A stretch of 64,000 nucleotides of DNA from positions 496,001 to 560,000 of the forward strand of contig NZ_JAMQON010000002.1 in assembly GCF_031624395.1 (NCBI RefSeq). The letters are read 5' to 3'. Of this stretch, positions 35,248-52,216 are shown in pieces. The position numbers and the translations under genes are program-made. This stretch comes from Halomicroarcula saliterrae (GTDB taxonomy: Archaea > Halobacteriota > Halobacteria > Halobacteriales > Haloarculaceae). Numbering within the stretch: the stretch's first letter is position 1; each line of letters opens with the position of its first letter. A model generated the notes under the pieces. The model was not told where the DNA came from and made no database searches. It worked only from the letters and a program-made list of their open reading frames with translations.

Positions 35248-35342
35248 TAGGGGTAGATAGGAGTCAGCCCGTGTGAACACTTCGGTCGCTAGTAGCGGTC
35301 GTTTGAAACGACGGTATCGGTGCAGTACGTGTCACTGTGAAC

Positions 35343-35522
35343 AGCCAGAAAGCCCCCGGCCCCTTTCAGTCCCATCCAGCGCTGATTGACCAGCCGGCTA
35401 CGGGTGGACTGAAAGGGGCGACCCGTTCGGCGAAGGCGGGCGAGGTAAGCACCGGAGCCGACCACCGGGAGGCGAGGAGCACAGCGAGCCCCCCGAGTCG
35501 AACGGGTCGGGGCTTTCTGGCT
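35343..35522. repeat. nested palindromic element, copy 1 (one hairpin lost)
   Basis: Outer arms AGCCAGAAAGCCCC (35343-35356) and GGGGCTTTCTGGCT (35509-35522) are perfect inverted repeats. Inner arms GCCCCTTTCAGTCC (35359-35372) and GGACTGAAAGGGGC (35406-35419) enclose a 24-nt loop. To the right, CGACCCGTTCG (35419-35429) and CGAACGGGTCG (35499-35509) form an 11-bp stem around a module with AAGCACCG and CACAGCGAGCCCCCCGAG. The matching hairpin left of the loop is missing compared with copy 2. The surrounding 393-bp gap between surE and the transporter gene has no gene. Confidence 0.85.
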
Positions 35523-35640
35523 CTCGGAATTGGCAGCGGAAGAGGCAGAAGCCATAGCGGTCTCGCCGATACGAACACCCACATCTGCGACGGCGCCAAA
35601 CACGGGTTCTTTTTGCGACTGGATACGCTTGAGTGTCGTA

Positions 35641-47981: not shown

Positions 47982-48394
47982 TCCGTGTCGAGCGGTTTGC
48001 CGTCCTCGGTCGGCGGGGCGACGTAGTCGATGTAGCTCTCGGCGTCCGGTTCGCGGACGGTGACGGAGACGTGGATGTCGCCCAGTTCCGCGGGCTCGCC
48101 GACGGCGAAGTTAACCCGGCTCTCGAAGGCCGCCTGCTTCTTCAGGTCGAAGGAGAAGCTGTCGCCGGCCAGGTTGTCGAAGAAGACCGAGCGGGCGGTG
48201 TCGAGGATTTCCGCGCGGTGGAGCGCCTCCGAGAAGCCCTCCATCGTGTGGACCTCGGCGACGAGCTCCCCCTCGCGGTGTGTCGGGTCGGCCTCCGGGA
48301 ACAGATTCCGGACGGCGTCGGCGACCCGCGCGGTGACCTCCGTGTCGTTGACCGGCGCCGTAATCGTCACGTCGACGCTGTAGACGGCGCTCAT
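47978..48394 (-). CDS. UPF0201 / RNA-binding domain protein
   Basis: A 138-residue member of the archaeal UPF0201 family, whose fold resembles ribosomal protein L5-type RNA-binding domains. The N-terminus SAVYSVDVTITAPVNDTEVT is the first beta strand. EVHTMEGFSEALHRAEILDT and the FFDNLAGDSFSFDLKKQAAF segment are conserved. It overlaps the UPF0200 gene by four bases upstream; the two families are adjacent or fused in many archaea, suggesting a joint function that is not known. Confidence 0.85.
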   Translation of the reverse strand: MSAVYSVDVTITAPVNDTEVTARVADAVRNLFPEADPTHREGELVAEVHTMEGFSEALHRAEILDTARSVFFDNLAGDSFSFDLKKQAAFESRVNFAVGEPAELGDIHVSVTVREPDAESYIDYVAPPTEDGKPLDTE

Positions 48395-48954
48395 GACTCG
48401 GCCGCCTCCACGCCGTCTTCGAGCAGCGCCCGGATTTGCCGCTGGAACGCCGACAGCGAGTCGGTGTTCTCGATGGTCACGTCGGCCATCGCCATCGCCT
48501 CGCCCATCCCGAAGCCCAGTTCGCGCTCGTCGCGCTCGTCGAGCGACTCGCCGCCCTCGTCGACGCTCGCGTCCCGGCCCCGAAGGTCGAGCCGGTCGGC
48601 GCGAACGTCGAAGGGCGCGTCTATCTCCAGCAGGACGAACGACTCGCCGAAGGCGTCCCGAAACGCCCCGACCTCCACGTCCGAGCGGATGCCGTCGACG
48701 AGGACGGTGTCGCTGTCCTCGCGTTCGGCCTCGATGATCGGCAGCGAGCGCTCGGCGATGGCGCCGAGGCCGTTCTCCTCGCGCAGCGCCTTCGCGACCG
48801 TCCCGTGGTCGGTCGCGGGGTCCAGCCCGCGCTCGCGGCACTCCTCGCGGATCACGTCGCCCATCGTCACGACCGGCACGCCCATGTCGGCGGCGACCGC
48901 CGCCGCCTCGCTCTTGCCGCTGCCGGGGAGTCCGACGACACCGATGACTGTCAT
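48391..48954 (-). CDS. UPF0200 P-loop kinase-like protein
   Basis: A nucleoside-kinase-like ATPase, 187 residues, related in fold to dephospho-CoA and adenylate kinases. The Walker A loop is VIGVVGLPGSGKSEAAAVA at the N-terminus, followed by VVTMGDVIREECRERGL and DTVLVDGIRSDVEVGAF (Walker B region). The acceptor substrate is unknown. It is the first gene of the UPF0200-UPF0201-HAD operon, all linked by four-base overlaps. Confidence 0.87.
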   Translation of the reverse strand: MTVIGVVGLPGSGKSEAAAVAADMGVPVVTMGDVIREECRERGLDPATDHGTVAKALREENGLGAIAERSLPIIEAEREDSDTVLVDGIRSDVEVGAFRDAFGESFVLLEIDAPFDVRADRLDLRGRDASVDEGGESLDERDERELGFGMGEAMAMADVTIENTDSLSAFQRQIRALLEDGVEAAES

Positions 48955-49087
48955 TGGAAGCGCTTTGTCGAGTACCGGCTAAAGACCTGCTGTTCTAGCT
49001 GTGGTGACTGTCGGAGCGGGAACTATTGGGAACAGCCAGACAGCCCCGCTAGCAATCTAAATCTTGACCGCTACTGCTGACCTGTAC
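48955..49087. other. gene-free sequence before element copy 2
   Basis: Part of a 453-bp gap. No gene is seen. AACAGCCAGACAGCCCC at 49030-49046 is a near copy of the outer left arm of the palindromic element (AGCCAGAAAGCCCC), about 58 bases before the full copy begins, perhaps a remnant of another insertion. Confidence 0.5.
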
Positions 49088-49347
49088 AGCCAGAAAGCCC
49101 CCGAGCTAAGGACTCCCGCGACTTGCTGCGCGCCTCGGCCTTCGGCCTGCGGTGCTTGCGTCGTCGGGGTTCGTCCTTAGCTCGGCCCCTTTCAGTCCCA
49201 CCCGTAGCCGGTTGGTCAAACAGCGCTGGGTGGGACTGAAAGGGGCGGCTGTGTCGACGAAGGCGGGCGACACAAGCACCGCAGGGAGCGAAGCGACCGA
49301 GGCGCACAGCGAGCCCCCCGAGTCGACACAGCCGGGGCTTTCTCGCT
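49088..49347. repeat. nested palindromic element, copy 2 (complete)
   Basis: Outer arms AGCCAGAAAGCCCC (49088-49101) and GGGGCTTTCTCGCT (49334-49347) differ from perfect complementarity at one base. Left hairpin stem: CCGAGCTAAGGAC (49101-49113) with GTCCTTAGCTCGG (49173-49185). Inner arms: GCCCCTTTCAGTCCCACCC (49185-49203) with GGGTGGGACTGAAAGGGGC (49228-49246), a perfect 19 bp around a 24-nt loop. Right hairpin stem: CGGCTGTGTCGA (49246-49257) with TCGACACAGCCG (49323-49334). The two hairpin interiors are inverted homologues of each other (AAGCACCGCAGG, CCGAGGCG). No reading frame explains it. Confidence 0.9.
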
Positions 49348-49407
49348 CTCCGTATTGATGGCTGTGTGAATTGCAGTCGTCGCAGTAGCCGCTACGAACT
49401 TAGCTAG

Positions 49408-50250
49408 TCAGCGTTCCCGAACAACGACGAACTCAGCCAGCTCCCGGAGATACTCCATCGACTGGGAGTCGGGGGCGTCGACGGTGTCGAGCGCTTCGAG
49501 CGCGGCGTCGGACTCGGCGCGGGCCTTGGCGTTTGCCTCTTCGGCGGTGAGGTCGGTCACCTCGAGGAAGGAGGGCCGTTCCATCGCCGCGTCGTGACCC
49601 GTCGGCTTGCCCAGCGTCTCGGCGTCGGCGGTGGCGTCTAACACGTCGTCGCGCATCTGGAAGGCGACGCCGACCCGCTGGGCGTACTCGCCCATCGTCT
49701 CGACCGTGTAGCCGTCGGCGCCGGCCGCGATGGCGCCCAGCTCCGCGGCCGCCCGGAACAGCGCGCCCGTCTTGCGACGGGCCAGCACCATGTACTCCGT
49801 CTCGTTGCTCGGCTGGGCGACCAGCTCCGTGGCCTCGCCCTCACCCAGTTCGACCATCGACTCGGCGACGGTCTGCATCGCCCGTTCGTCGCCGGAAAAG
49901 AGGGCAAAGGCCTCCCCCAGGAGGCCGTCCGAGGCGATGATAGCCGAGCCGTGGCCGTATTCGGCCCACGCCGCCGGCGTCCCGCGGCGGACGTCCGACT
50001 CGTCGATGATGTCGTCGATGACCAGCGAGGCGTTGTGGACCAGTTCGATGCCAACGGCGAAATCGACCGCGTCGCCCGGGTCCCCGCCCAGCGCCTCACA
50101 CACCAGCACGGCCACCGTCGGGCGGACCCGTTTCCCGCCCGAGAGCACGACGTGCCCGACCTGCTCGGCGAGTTCGTCGGGCCTGACGCCGTCGATGACG
50201 GCCTCTAGCCGCGCCTCGACGCGGTCACGACGCGCCTCGAGATACTCCAT
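49408..50250 (-). CDS. idsA: geranylgeranyl / polyprenyl diphosphate synthase
   Basis: Makes the C20 (or longer) prenyl diphosphate for archaeal ether lipids, carotenoids and quinones. The 280-residue all-helical protein has the first aspartate-rich motif in LVIDDIIDESDVRRG, the preceding LSGGKRVRPTVAVLVCEAL, and the second motif in GVAFQMRDDVLDATADAE. The frame opens far upstream, but the ATG at 50250 (MEYLEARRDRVEARLEAV) is the family start. The retinal of the nearby bacteriorhodopsin is derived from this pathway. Confidence 0.93.
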   Translation of the reverse strand: MEYLEARRDRVEARLEAVIDGVRPDELAEQVGHVVLSGGKRVRPTVAVLVCEALGGDPGDAVDFAVGIELVHNASLVIDDIIDESDVRRGTPAAWAEYGHGSAIIASDGLLGEAFALFSGDERAMQTVAESMVELGEGEATELVAQPSNETEYMVLARRKTGALFRAAAELGAIAAGADGYTVETMGEYAQRVGVAFQMRDDVLDATADAETLGKPTGHDAAMERPSFLEVTDLTAEEANAKARAESDAALEALDTVDAPDSQSMEYLRELAEFVVVRER

Positions 50251-50341
50251 TACCGACGGCTTGGGCCCACGGGAAAAAGTACCTGACGACCCAGCGCTCG
50301 ACGGGGAAACAGCGAAAGAAACGACAGCCGGAGACCGCCTC

Positions 50342-52216
50342 TCAGTTGTCGTCGTTCTGGACCGGCTGGCTCGGGCCGCCCGAGAAGACGAACTCGTGTT
50401 CGGCGGCGGTCTCGAACCGGTCGAGGATACCGCCGAGCGGCTTCGCGTACCGCTTGAGCCGGTCGGCACGTTCCGAGACCTCGTCCAGCTCGTCGGCCTG
50501 CTGTTTGGAAGTCTCCGAGGCGTCCTCGGCCTCAGACCGAATCGACTGGCTCTTGCCGGTGACCTCGTCCAGCACGTCGGCGACGGACTCGAACTGCGCC
50601 AGTTCGTCGTTGATGTCGACGTGTGGGTTCCCCTTCAGCGAGTGGAGCCGGTCGATGACCTCGTCGAGGGTGACAGCGAGCGCCTGCAGGCGCTCCTCCT
50701 GCTGGGTGGCGTCCGTGTTGATCGCGTCGACAGAGGCCGTCACGCGCTCTGCGGACTGGCGGACGTTCTCCGTGTTCGTCAGCACGATCTCACTGGAGTC
50801 GGCGACCTCCTCCGAGAAGGTCTTGAGCTGTCCGGTGGTCTTCTCGAGTTCGCCCAGCATCTCGTTGAACTCCTCGGCGATGCGGTCCATCGCGTCGTTC
50901 TCGTTGTCGACCTCCATGCGCTGGGTGAGGTCACCGTTGGCACACCGCTGCATGACCTCGCTGTAGTCCTCCGCCTTCTCCTGGAGGTAGTCGGTCATGG
51001 CGAGTGCCTCCTGTCGGGAGACCTCGGCCTCTTTGCGAGCGGACTCGGCCTCCTGGATACGGTCCCGGAGCGCGTCGCGCATGTTGGCGAACGAGGCGGT
51101 CAGCCGACCGAACTCGTCGCGGCGGTTGACCTCCAGCTCGATGTCGAGGTTGCCGGCCTCCAGCCGTTCGGCCTTCTCGGTCAGCCGGTTCAGCGCGCTC
51201 ACAGTCCCGCGACCGAAGACGACGCCGATGACACCGATACCGAGGAACGCCGTCACCGCGAGCACGAGCAGGTTCGTGGTGATAGTGCTCCGGAGCGCGT
51301 AGGCCGTCGAGAGCGGGACGTGGGTCGCGACGATCCACTCCTCGCCTTCGACGGACGCGAACCCGATAGCGACGCTGCTGTGGTCCGGCAGCGTGGTGCC
51401 GTTGATGTCAGCGCCCTGGACGAACCCGGTCTCGCCGTTCAGCCCGCTCCGCAGGATGGACAGGTCGCCGGGGCTGTCGGTGTACACCGAGAGGGTCCCG
51501 TCGTTACGGTCGAGCCGTTCGGTTTCCTGGGTCCCCGCGACGATACGGCCTTCAGCGTCGATGACCTGCGAGTAGACGCCCTGTGACGGCGCTGGGAGGT
51601 TCCCGGCCAGTGCGTCCATGTCGGTCTGCATCACGAGAATAAGGTCGTCGCCGCTCTCGGTCTCGACCTCGGTGACGAACGACACCAGCGAGCGGGTCAG
51701 CGCCTCGTCCGCACGCGAGACGAACACGCCGTCGTCGTTGTAGGTCAGGTTGTCGTTCTGCCACGGCGCTTCGCGCGTGTTGAGGGGTTCGCCGACTTTG
51801 GCCTCGGACGTGCTCGCGGTGATGTTCGAGTTGCTGCGGTTGACGAGGTGCACCCGATACACGTCCTCGGGGAGCCGTTCCCGCTCGCTTTCGAGGAAGC
51901 TCTGTCGCTCGGAGTGGGTGCCGCTCCGGATCACCTCGAACTGTGAGAGCCGCCGGGTCGTGTCGCTCCGTGATTGGCGCCACTCTTCGATCTGTGTCGC
52001 GCTCTGGTTCGCGACACCGGTGTACTCCGTCTCGGTCTCGGCGGTCAGCTGGGTGTCCGTCTGGTTGTACGTGTTCGCACTCACGCCGACGATAACGACC
52101 GAAATCAACAGCAACGCAGCCAGAAACTTCGCGAGGAAGCTCCGGGCCAGAAAACCGGGGAGGACGCTGCTGGCTTCGTCTACGCTTCGCGACTGGGGTG
52201 TGTCGTCTTCGCTCAT
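50342..52216 (-). CDS. MCP-like HAMP transducer without the signalling tip
   Basis: A 624-residue membrane sensor. TM1 is at about 27-47, an extracytoplasmic Cache-like domain at about 50-310, and TM2 at about 314-335, followed by a HAMP domain (TVSALNRLTEKAERLEAGNL) and a second HAMP-like segment (VMQRCANGDLTQRMEVDNEN). About 180 residues of coiled coil complete the protein. The hallmark hairpin tip of chemotaxis transducers (IAxQTNLLALNAxIEAARAGE) is absent, so CheA/CheW coupling is doubtful. It is seven bases downstream of a solute-binding-protein gene and probably receives its signal from it. Confidence 0.85.
   Translation of the reverse strand: MSEDDTPQSRSVDEASSVLPGFLARSFLAKFLAALLLISVVIVGVSANTYNQTDTQLTAETETEYTGVANQSATQIEEWRQSRSDTTRRLSQFEVIRSGTHSERQSFLESERERLPEDVYRVHLVNRSNSNITASTSEAKVGEPLNTREAPWQNDNLTYNDDGVFVSRADEALTRSLVSFVTEVETESGDDLILVMQTDMDALAGNLPAPSQGVYSQVIDAEGRIVAGTQETERLDRNDGTLSVYTDSPGDLSILRSGLNGETGFVQGADINGTTLPDHSSVAIGFASVEGEEWIVATHVPLSTAYALRSTITTNLLVLAVTAFLGIGVIGVVFGRGTVSALNRLTEKAERLEAGNLDIELEVNRRDEFGRLTASFANMRDALRDRIQEAESARKEAEVSRQEALAMTDYLQEKAEDYSEVMQRCANGDLTQRMEVDNENDAMDRIAEEFNEMLGELEKTTGQLKTFSEEVADSSEIVLTNTENVRQSAERVTASVDAINTDATQQEERLQALAVTLDEVIDRLHSLKGNPHVDINDELAQFESVADVLDEVTGKSQSIRSEAEDASETSKQQADELDEVSERADRLKRYAKPLGGILDRFETAAEHEFVFSGGPSQPVQNDDN

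Follow-up and report, generated by a model that had tools for sequence, protein, structure and literature searches.

A palindromic repeat of Halobacteriales as the probable derived core of an IS6-type MITE family carrying a conserved hairpin unit

Several kinds of described element are close to the repeat considered here. ISH14 and ISH29 are 696-697 bp long, encode a 211-aa transposase and generate 8-bp target duplications, a 9-bp duplication being listed for ISH15 (PMC6807381), and an IS6-family MITE, MITEHarch3, is recorded in ISFinder (PMC6807381). PATEs, by definition, have neither inverted terminal repeats nor target duplications (PMC3119063). The palindrome described below lies at 49088-49347 of the window, the 64,000-nucleotide stretch of Halomicroarcula saliterrae DNA that was analysed. 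The explanation that we regard as likely is that it is the core of an IS6-type MITE family moved by a transposase of the ISH14/15/29 type, whose hairpin cargo is selected as RNA.

Architecture and distribution of the element

The element is intergenic, with minus-strand ORFs on either side (48391-48954 and 49408-50469), and is, by its sequence and the inverted-repeat listing, a nested palindrome with outer arms, two hairpins and an inner stem enclosing a loop (Table 1). An earlier note, made from the letters alone, had given its coordinates, levels of self-complementarity, perfect 19-bp inner stem and 24-nt loop, all of which match the sequence, and had described the stems as unrelated yet perfectly complementary, which is true of the window copies. 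Folding of the element as RNA yielded -173.8 against a mean of -118.7 for shuffled sequences (z = -9.9), and folding as DNA differed from shuffles by z = -7.4. The claim that the two hairpin interiors are inverted homologues is borne out by a single covariance model, which matches both hairpins on opposite strands; the element therefore consists of two head-to-head copies of one unit. The element had also been called complete, which is correct for the anatomy at 49088-49347 but misses the outer boundary, since complete copies reach further and have inverted repeats and 8-bp duplications. The other window copy (copy 1, 35332-35533) has kept one unit and lost the hairpin of the other.

Table 1. 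Features of the palindrome and of copy 1 (positions in the window)
Feature	Position	Strand	Remarks
Left-edge tandem duplication	49032..49101	+	direct repeat D2: ACAGCCAGACAGCCCC 49032-49047, ACAGCCAGAAAGCCCC 49086-49101
Left outer arm GAAAGCCCC	49093..49101	+	pairs with 49334-49342; sequence, inverted repeat I2
Left hairpin stem, 5' arm CGAGCTAAGGAC	49102..49113	+	exactly 12 bp, perfect
Left hairpin interior, conserved module	49114..49172	+	covariance model reads - strand, 49205-49077, 123.8 bits
Left hairpin stem, 3' arm GTCCTTAGCTCG	49173..49184	+	partner of 49102-49113
Inner stem, left arm GCCCCTTTCAGTCCCACCC	49185..49203	+	19 nt; perfect pairing with 49228-49246
Loop between the two inverted hairpin units	49204..49227	+	24 nt
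Inner stem, right arm GGGTGGGACTGAAAGGGGC	49228..49246	+	also serves as conserved 5' leader for the right hairpin unit
Right hairpin stem, 5' arm GGCTGTGTCGAC	49247..49258	+	12 bp
Right hairpin interior, conserved internal-loop residues GACACAAGCACCGCA ... GCGCACAGCGAG	49259..49321	+	covariance model match 49226-49358 (+), 139.7 bits
Right hairpin stem, 3' arm GTCGACACAGCC	49322..49333	+	partner of 49247-49258
Right outer arm GGGGCTTTC	49334..49342	+	pairs with 49093-49101
Copy 1, left unit, hairpin deleted down to the foot	35332..35379	-	45.2 bits, hairpin positions missing
Copy 1, intact right hairpin unit, stem GACCCGTTCG / CGAACGGGTC	35400..35533	+	covariance model, 117.1 bits

The tandem duplication at the left edge has a GCTAGC-containing spacer and a spacing of 54 bp in the window. 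A longer array, in which a unit of 46-48 bp recurs about four times, lies upstream at an orthologous locus (L062), and the upstream flank of another locus (L008) is also duplicated.

Dozens of copies, the palindrome among them, are present in its own genome, where BLASTN found 38 matching places (the two strands of palindromic copies being counted separately). The BLASTN search for further copies proposed in the earlier note returned matches in 36 of the 41 genomes searched, own genome included. A covariance model of the hairpin unit has matches in 19 of 24 Halobacteriales genomes, as against none among 124 from the rest of the phylum, and a motif scan found the single-hairpin unit across the order, in Haladaptatus, Halorussus, Natrinema, Natronococcus, Haloparvum, Halobaculum and others. 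Some units of Halorussus and others (L217, L234 and L256) combine the usual foot and variable stem with an interior of unrelated sequence (about TGGTCGTCT...GCGA), which would fit a foot and stem able to hold a different module. Pieces of the element occur on plasmids of 28 haloarchaeal records. A viral origin was rejected, since a phage search gave no match to the element and the exact motif occurs in viral contigs in unrelated contexts only.

Nearly all copies are intergenic, with divergent neighbours (20) somewhat commoner than convergent ones (9), as might be expected of an RNA element that regulates particular neighbours in cis. However, copies lie on the same strand as the neighbouring gene in 23 cases and on the opposite strand in 19, which counts against a simple mRNA element, and at the window locus the intact element is found in only 3 of 32 congeners. 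Such a cis-regulatory role is therefore most improbable, a gene-linked riboswitch or UTR element was rejected for want of a strand bias, and the earlier suggestion of a regulatory RNA finds no consistent strand relation to lean on. Placement near genes irrespective of orientation suggests instead that an RNA would act alone or through a bound protein rather than on a specific neighbour.

Ends, target duplications and a probable IS6-type partner

Elsewhere, and once in the own genome too, complete copies terminate in inverted repeats, GGYRGTGTTYAGWTAAGC, and are flanked by target duplications of 8 bp. In inverted orientation, the word GTGTTYA[GC] stands at the left side of 15 and the right side of 16 out of 141 elements (background, 0.6% per window), and in the wrong orientation at 1 and 2 of the 141, respectively. 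Both ends were recognised by a weight matrix in 20 elements; in 7 of these, the target duplications agree at 6-8 of the 8 bases, the chance for a random pair being 0.5% each. Perfect 8-bp duplications are present at L119 and L269 and, in the own genome, at L006; the complete own-genome copy, at positions 323912-324354 of contig C5 (G000), has a perfect GAGTAGCC duplication. Complete copies measure 182-443 bp, have no transposase gene and are composed of hairpins. Most of them are near 215 bp long if they hold one unit and near 313 bp if they hold two, the two-unit head-to-head arrangement being the form seen in the window.

A search of the genus for IS6-type transposases led to 697-bp elements with the same ends, GGYNGTGTTYAGWTAAGC, as the complete copies and, at five of them, perfect 8-bp duplications. 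One intact element of this type is found in the own genome (L413, G000:C10, positions 1208-1904), with a transposase that is IS6 (NF033587, 182 bits; cut-off 125). A further IS6-type end starts 9 bp past this intact IS, from about position 1914, and suggests a second copy in tandem. The two copy-richest genomes (G002 and G009) gave no IS6 match with PF13610, a result that counts against the explanation favoured here. None of these terminal repeats was found at the single examined hairpin of halophilic archaeon DL31.

Given their inverted repeats, 8-bp duplications and ends common to autonomous 697-bp IS6-type elements, the family is a MITE. Terminal inverted repeats were searched for at both window copies and are absent, which is why these are called a derived core of the MITE; the earlier label 'MITE-like' is accurate, as the IS6-type repeats and 8-bp duplications of complete copies show, although the window copies have lost their ends. 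Most likely, complete copies are mobilised in trans by transposases of the 697-bp ISH14/15/29 group, and the window copies would be old insertions with eroded ends.

Covariation, strand polarity and turnover of the hairpins

In an alignment of 60 units, 93% of the cells pair and 22 of the 30 pairs have changed on both sides, with a covariation score of 0.516 as compared to 0.139 +/- 0.009 for shuffled alignments and at most 0.085 with slid partners. Covariation is hence strong. Perfect 11-bp stems are found in 123 of 187 modules, and the non-Watson-Crick cells of this set comprise 46 G.T, 8 A.C and 35 others (G.T versus A.C, p = 1.4e-7), decayed stems being under-counted because only stems with at least 9/12 matches were admitted. 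Among 106 units found by the covariance model rather than by motif, there are 64 G.T and 22 A.C, or 41 and 22 without one pair that supplies 23 of the 64 G.T, although a model trained on pairs may slightly favour G.T. As unselected double-stranded DNA is expected to show equal numbers of both, the excess indicates that a single strand of one polarity is selected. Selection on the hairpins as single-stranded structure is therefore supported.

The length of the stem is nearly fixed: in 96 of the 106 units, its 5' arm has precisely 13 nt (C plus 12). Conservation of the foot AAAG-GGG-C / G-GGG-CTTT and of the loops GAA/GA, GACGCAAG and GCAGCGA largely exceeds 90% in these units, with a few positions at 55-90%. 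For the GGGACTGAAAGGGGC core, conservation in alignment A1 is partly by construction, its loci having been selected by that exact motif, and it was rechecked on alignment A2, whose loci were found by the covariance model. Non-wobble mismatches affect 2.3% of stem positions in units with a recognisable end and 1.9% in units without, in a module collection that under-counts decayed stems, and this equality argues that stems outlast ends. Where the leader GGGTGGGACTGAAAGGGGC (in L155-L273) forms the hairpin foot, it contains four G-tracts that are conserved and fit a quadruplex pattern, which the high K+ of the haloarchaeal cytoplasm would favour.

The G.T excess and the selection on the top strand would also fit a single-stranded DNA hairpin, and the main rival to an RNA is accordingly an element whose single-stranded DNA fold is recognised by a DNA enzyme, as in PATEs derived from IS200/IS605 or in REP elements, and that has no RNA role. 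The palindromes, the strand bias and the frequent deletions at the hairpin foot all agree with it, and both PATEs and inversion of elements ('SwitchRepeats') are known in Haloquadratum (PMC3119063). However, the complete copies have the inverted repeats and 8-bp duplications that PATEs lack, two defining features on which identity with PATEs was rejected. Moreover, no Y1/HUH transposase (PF01797) was found in the own genome or in 11 of 32 congeners, and mobilisation by Y1/RAYT was rejected on its absence from the genome. IS6-type DDE transposition is not known to need hairpins, and the loop nucleotides are, as noted, highly conserved, all of which makes recognition as DNA alone rather unlikely.

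How stems change was followed at orthologous loci. At the window locus, the right hairpin and the loop are near-identical between G000 and G002, whereas the left hairpins differ throughout (stem CGAGCTAAGGAC versus GAGCGGCTACGG), which is replacement of a whole hairpin and not stepwise compensation; gene conversion thus also shapes the stems. A second locus (L330-L345), orthologous in about 15 congeners, has the element inverted between G018/G006 and G042/G015, an inversion between close species that probably arose by recombination between the outer inverted arms, in line with the earlier idea of a recombination substrate. Its hairpins are deleted to stubs in G003, G005, G042 and G021, and in G006 (L331) foreign double hairpins, one of 60 and one of 58 nt, are nested within hairpins whose counterparts in G018 (L330) are empty. 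These belong to a second, small double-hairpin family of 58-60 nt, GTTCGAAAGACG..CGTCTTTCGTCATCACGAGAGAGC..GCTCTCTCGAAC, which inserts within hairpins and is also present at L006, L012, L023 and L064. Orthologous stems of the second locus and a third one show 4 compensated double changes, 4 wobble pairs and 3 uncompensated changes, so that true compensation and exchange of modules both occur. The compensatory change claimed earlier is thereby seen in place as substitutions at orthologous loci, but part of the contrast between stems reflects hairpins that were replaced or inverted whole.

Perfect palindromes could also be maintained without any selection on stems, by template switching between arms and ectopic gene conversion, and the replacement of a whole hairpin at one orthologous locus, the inversion and deletion of hairpins at another and the short remnant copies found at many loci are all in accord with such mutational self-correction. 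Nevertheless, self-templating cannot yield an excess of G.T over A.C that follows the polarity of the hairpin, and it leaves the fixed stem length and the conserved internal-loop bases unexplained, which renders this scenario distinctly improbable.

A hairpin cargo and its relation to known systems

The reading that we favour, an IS6-type MITE with a hairpin cargo selected as RNA, starts from what the analysis established, namely the repeats, target duplications, common ends, covariation, one-strand wobble bias and in-place compensation. The hairpin unit, 5'-GGGTGGGACTGAAAGGGGC-[12 bp]-...-[12 bp]-GGGGCTTTC-3', would be kept by selection on a folded single strand, most likely an RNA produced by read-through or from the element itself. 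The 12-bp stem would be a spacer whose length is fixed and whose sequence is free, set between the GAAAG-GGG-C / G-GGG-CTTTC foot, which is invariant, and purine-rich internal loops, which are conserved and may bind a protein. This makes the family a good candidate for a mobile structured RNA that has not been described before. It is possible, though we say so only tentatively, that it represents a new haloarchaea-specific class of structured RNA, spread by an IS6-type MITE and kept after decay of its ends, and defined by the sequence-free 12-bp helix, the GGG/GGG foot and the conserved purine loops. In such a class, the foot might be stabilised by K+ as a quadruplex formed by the GGGTGGG...GGGG...GGGG tracts, which is speculation.

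Few archaeal repeat families are known with RNA-like selection, and the present one is order-wide, reaches dozens of copies in a genome and has no entry in Rfam. Its many natural mutants with paired changes lend themselves to direct tests of structure and function, and the family would be a clear substrate for the study of how haloarchaeal hairpins are inverted, deleted and entered by nested insertions. It also illustrates that the cargo of a gene-less transposon can outlive the mobility of the transposon.

Searches of Rfam 15 at gathering and relaxed thresholds gave no match in the window and only chance-level matches in six loci, and literature searches (for the motif, haloarchaeal REP and structured RNA) found no haloarchaeal paper with the motif. 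The string GTGGGAYTGAA in the element is one that we take to be CRISPR-repeat-like; identity with a CRISPR repeat was rejected, as there are no arrays and the anatomy is wrong. The earlier opinion that no named family fits therefore stands against Rfam and the literature searched, MITEHarch3 being known from its listing as an IS6-family MITE and not by sequence. MITEHarch3 may or may not be the present family, and part of the mobile-element finding may hence already be recorded.

As to other described systems, the PATEs/IS605-type elements of Haloquadratum are likewise short, non-coding, palindromic and multi-copy, with core deletions and opposite orientations at one site (PMC3119063). SMR-A inserts into palindromes (PMC3119063), as do the double hairpins of G006 when compared with G018, although it measures about 110 bp rather than 58-60 nt and the likeness is one of behaviour. 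Bacterial REP/BIME with RAYT are similar as dispersed intergenic hairpins in inverted pairs, but the present family has DDE-type ends and its own genome is devoid of a Y1 transposase. Also close are ISH14, ISH15 and ISH29, whose published length, protein size and 8-bp duplications (except for the 9 bp of ISH15) agree with those of the 697-bp elements found here, the ends of which match those of the complete copies; these IS have a transposase and no hairpin cargo, whereas the copies described here have the cargo and no transposase. We regard the family as an IS6-type MITE with a pan-haloarchaeal, RNA-like cargo.
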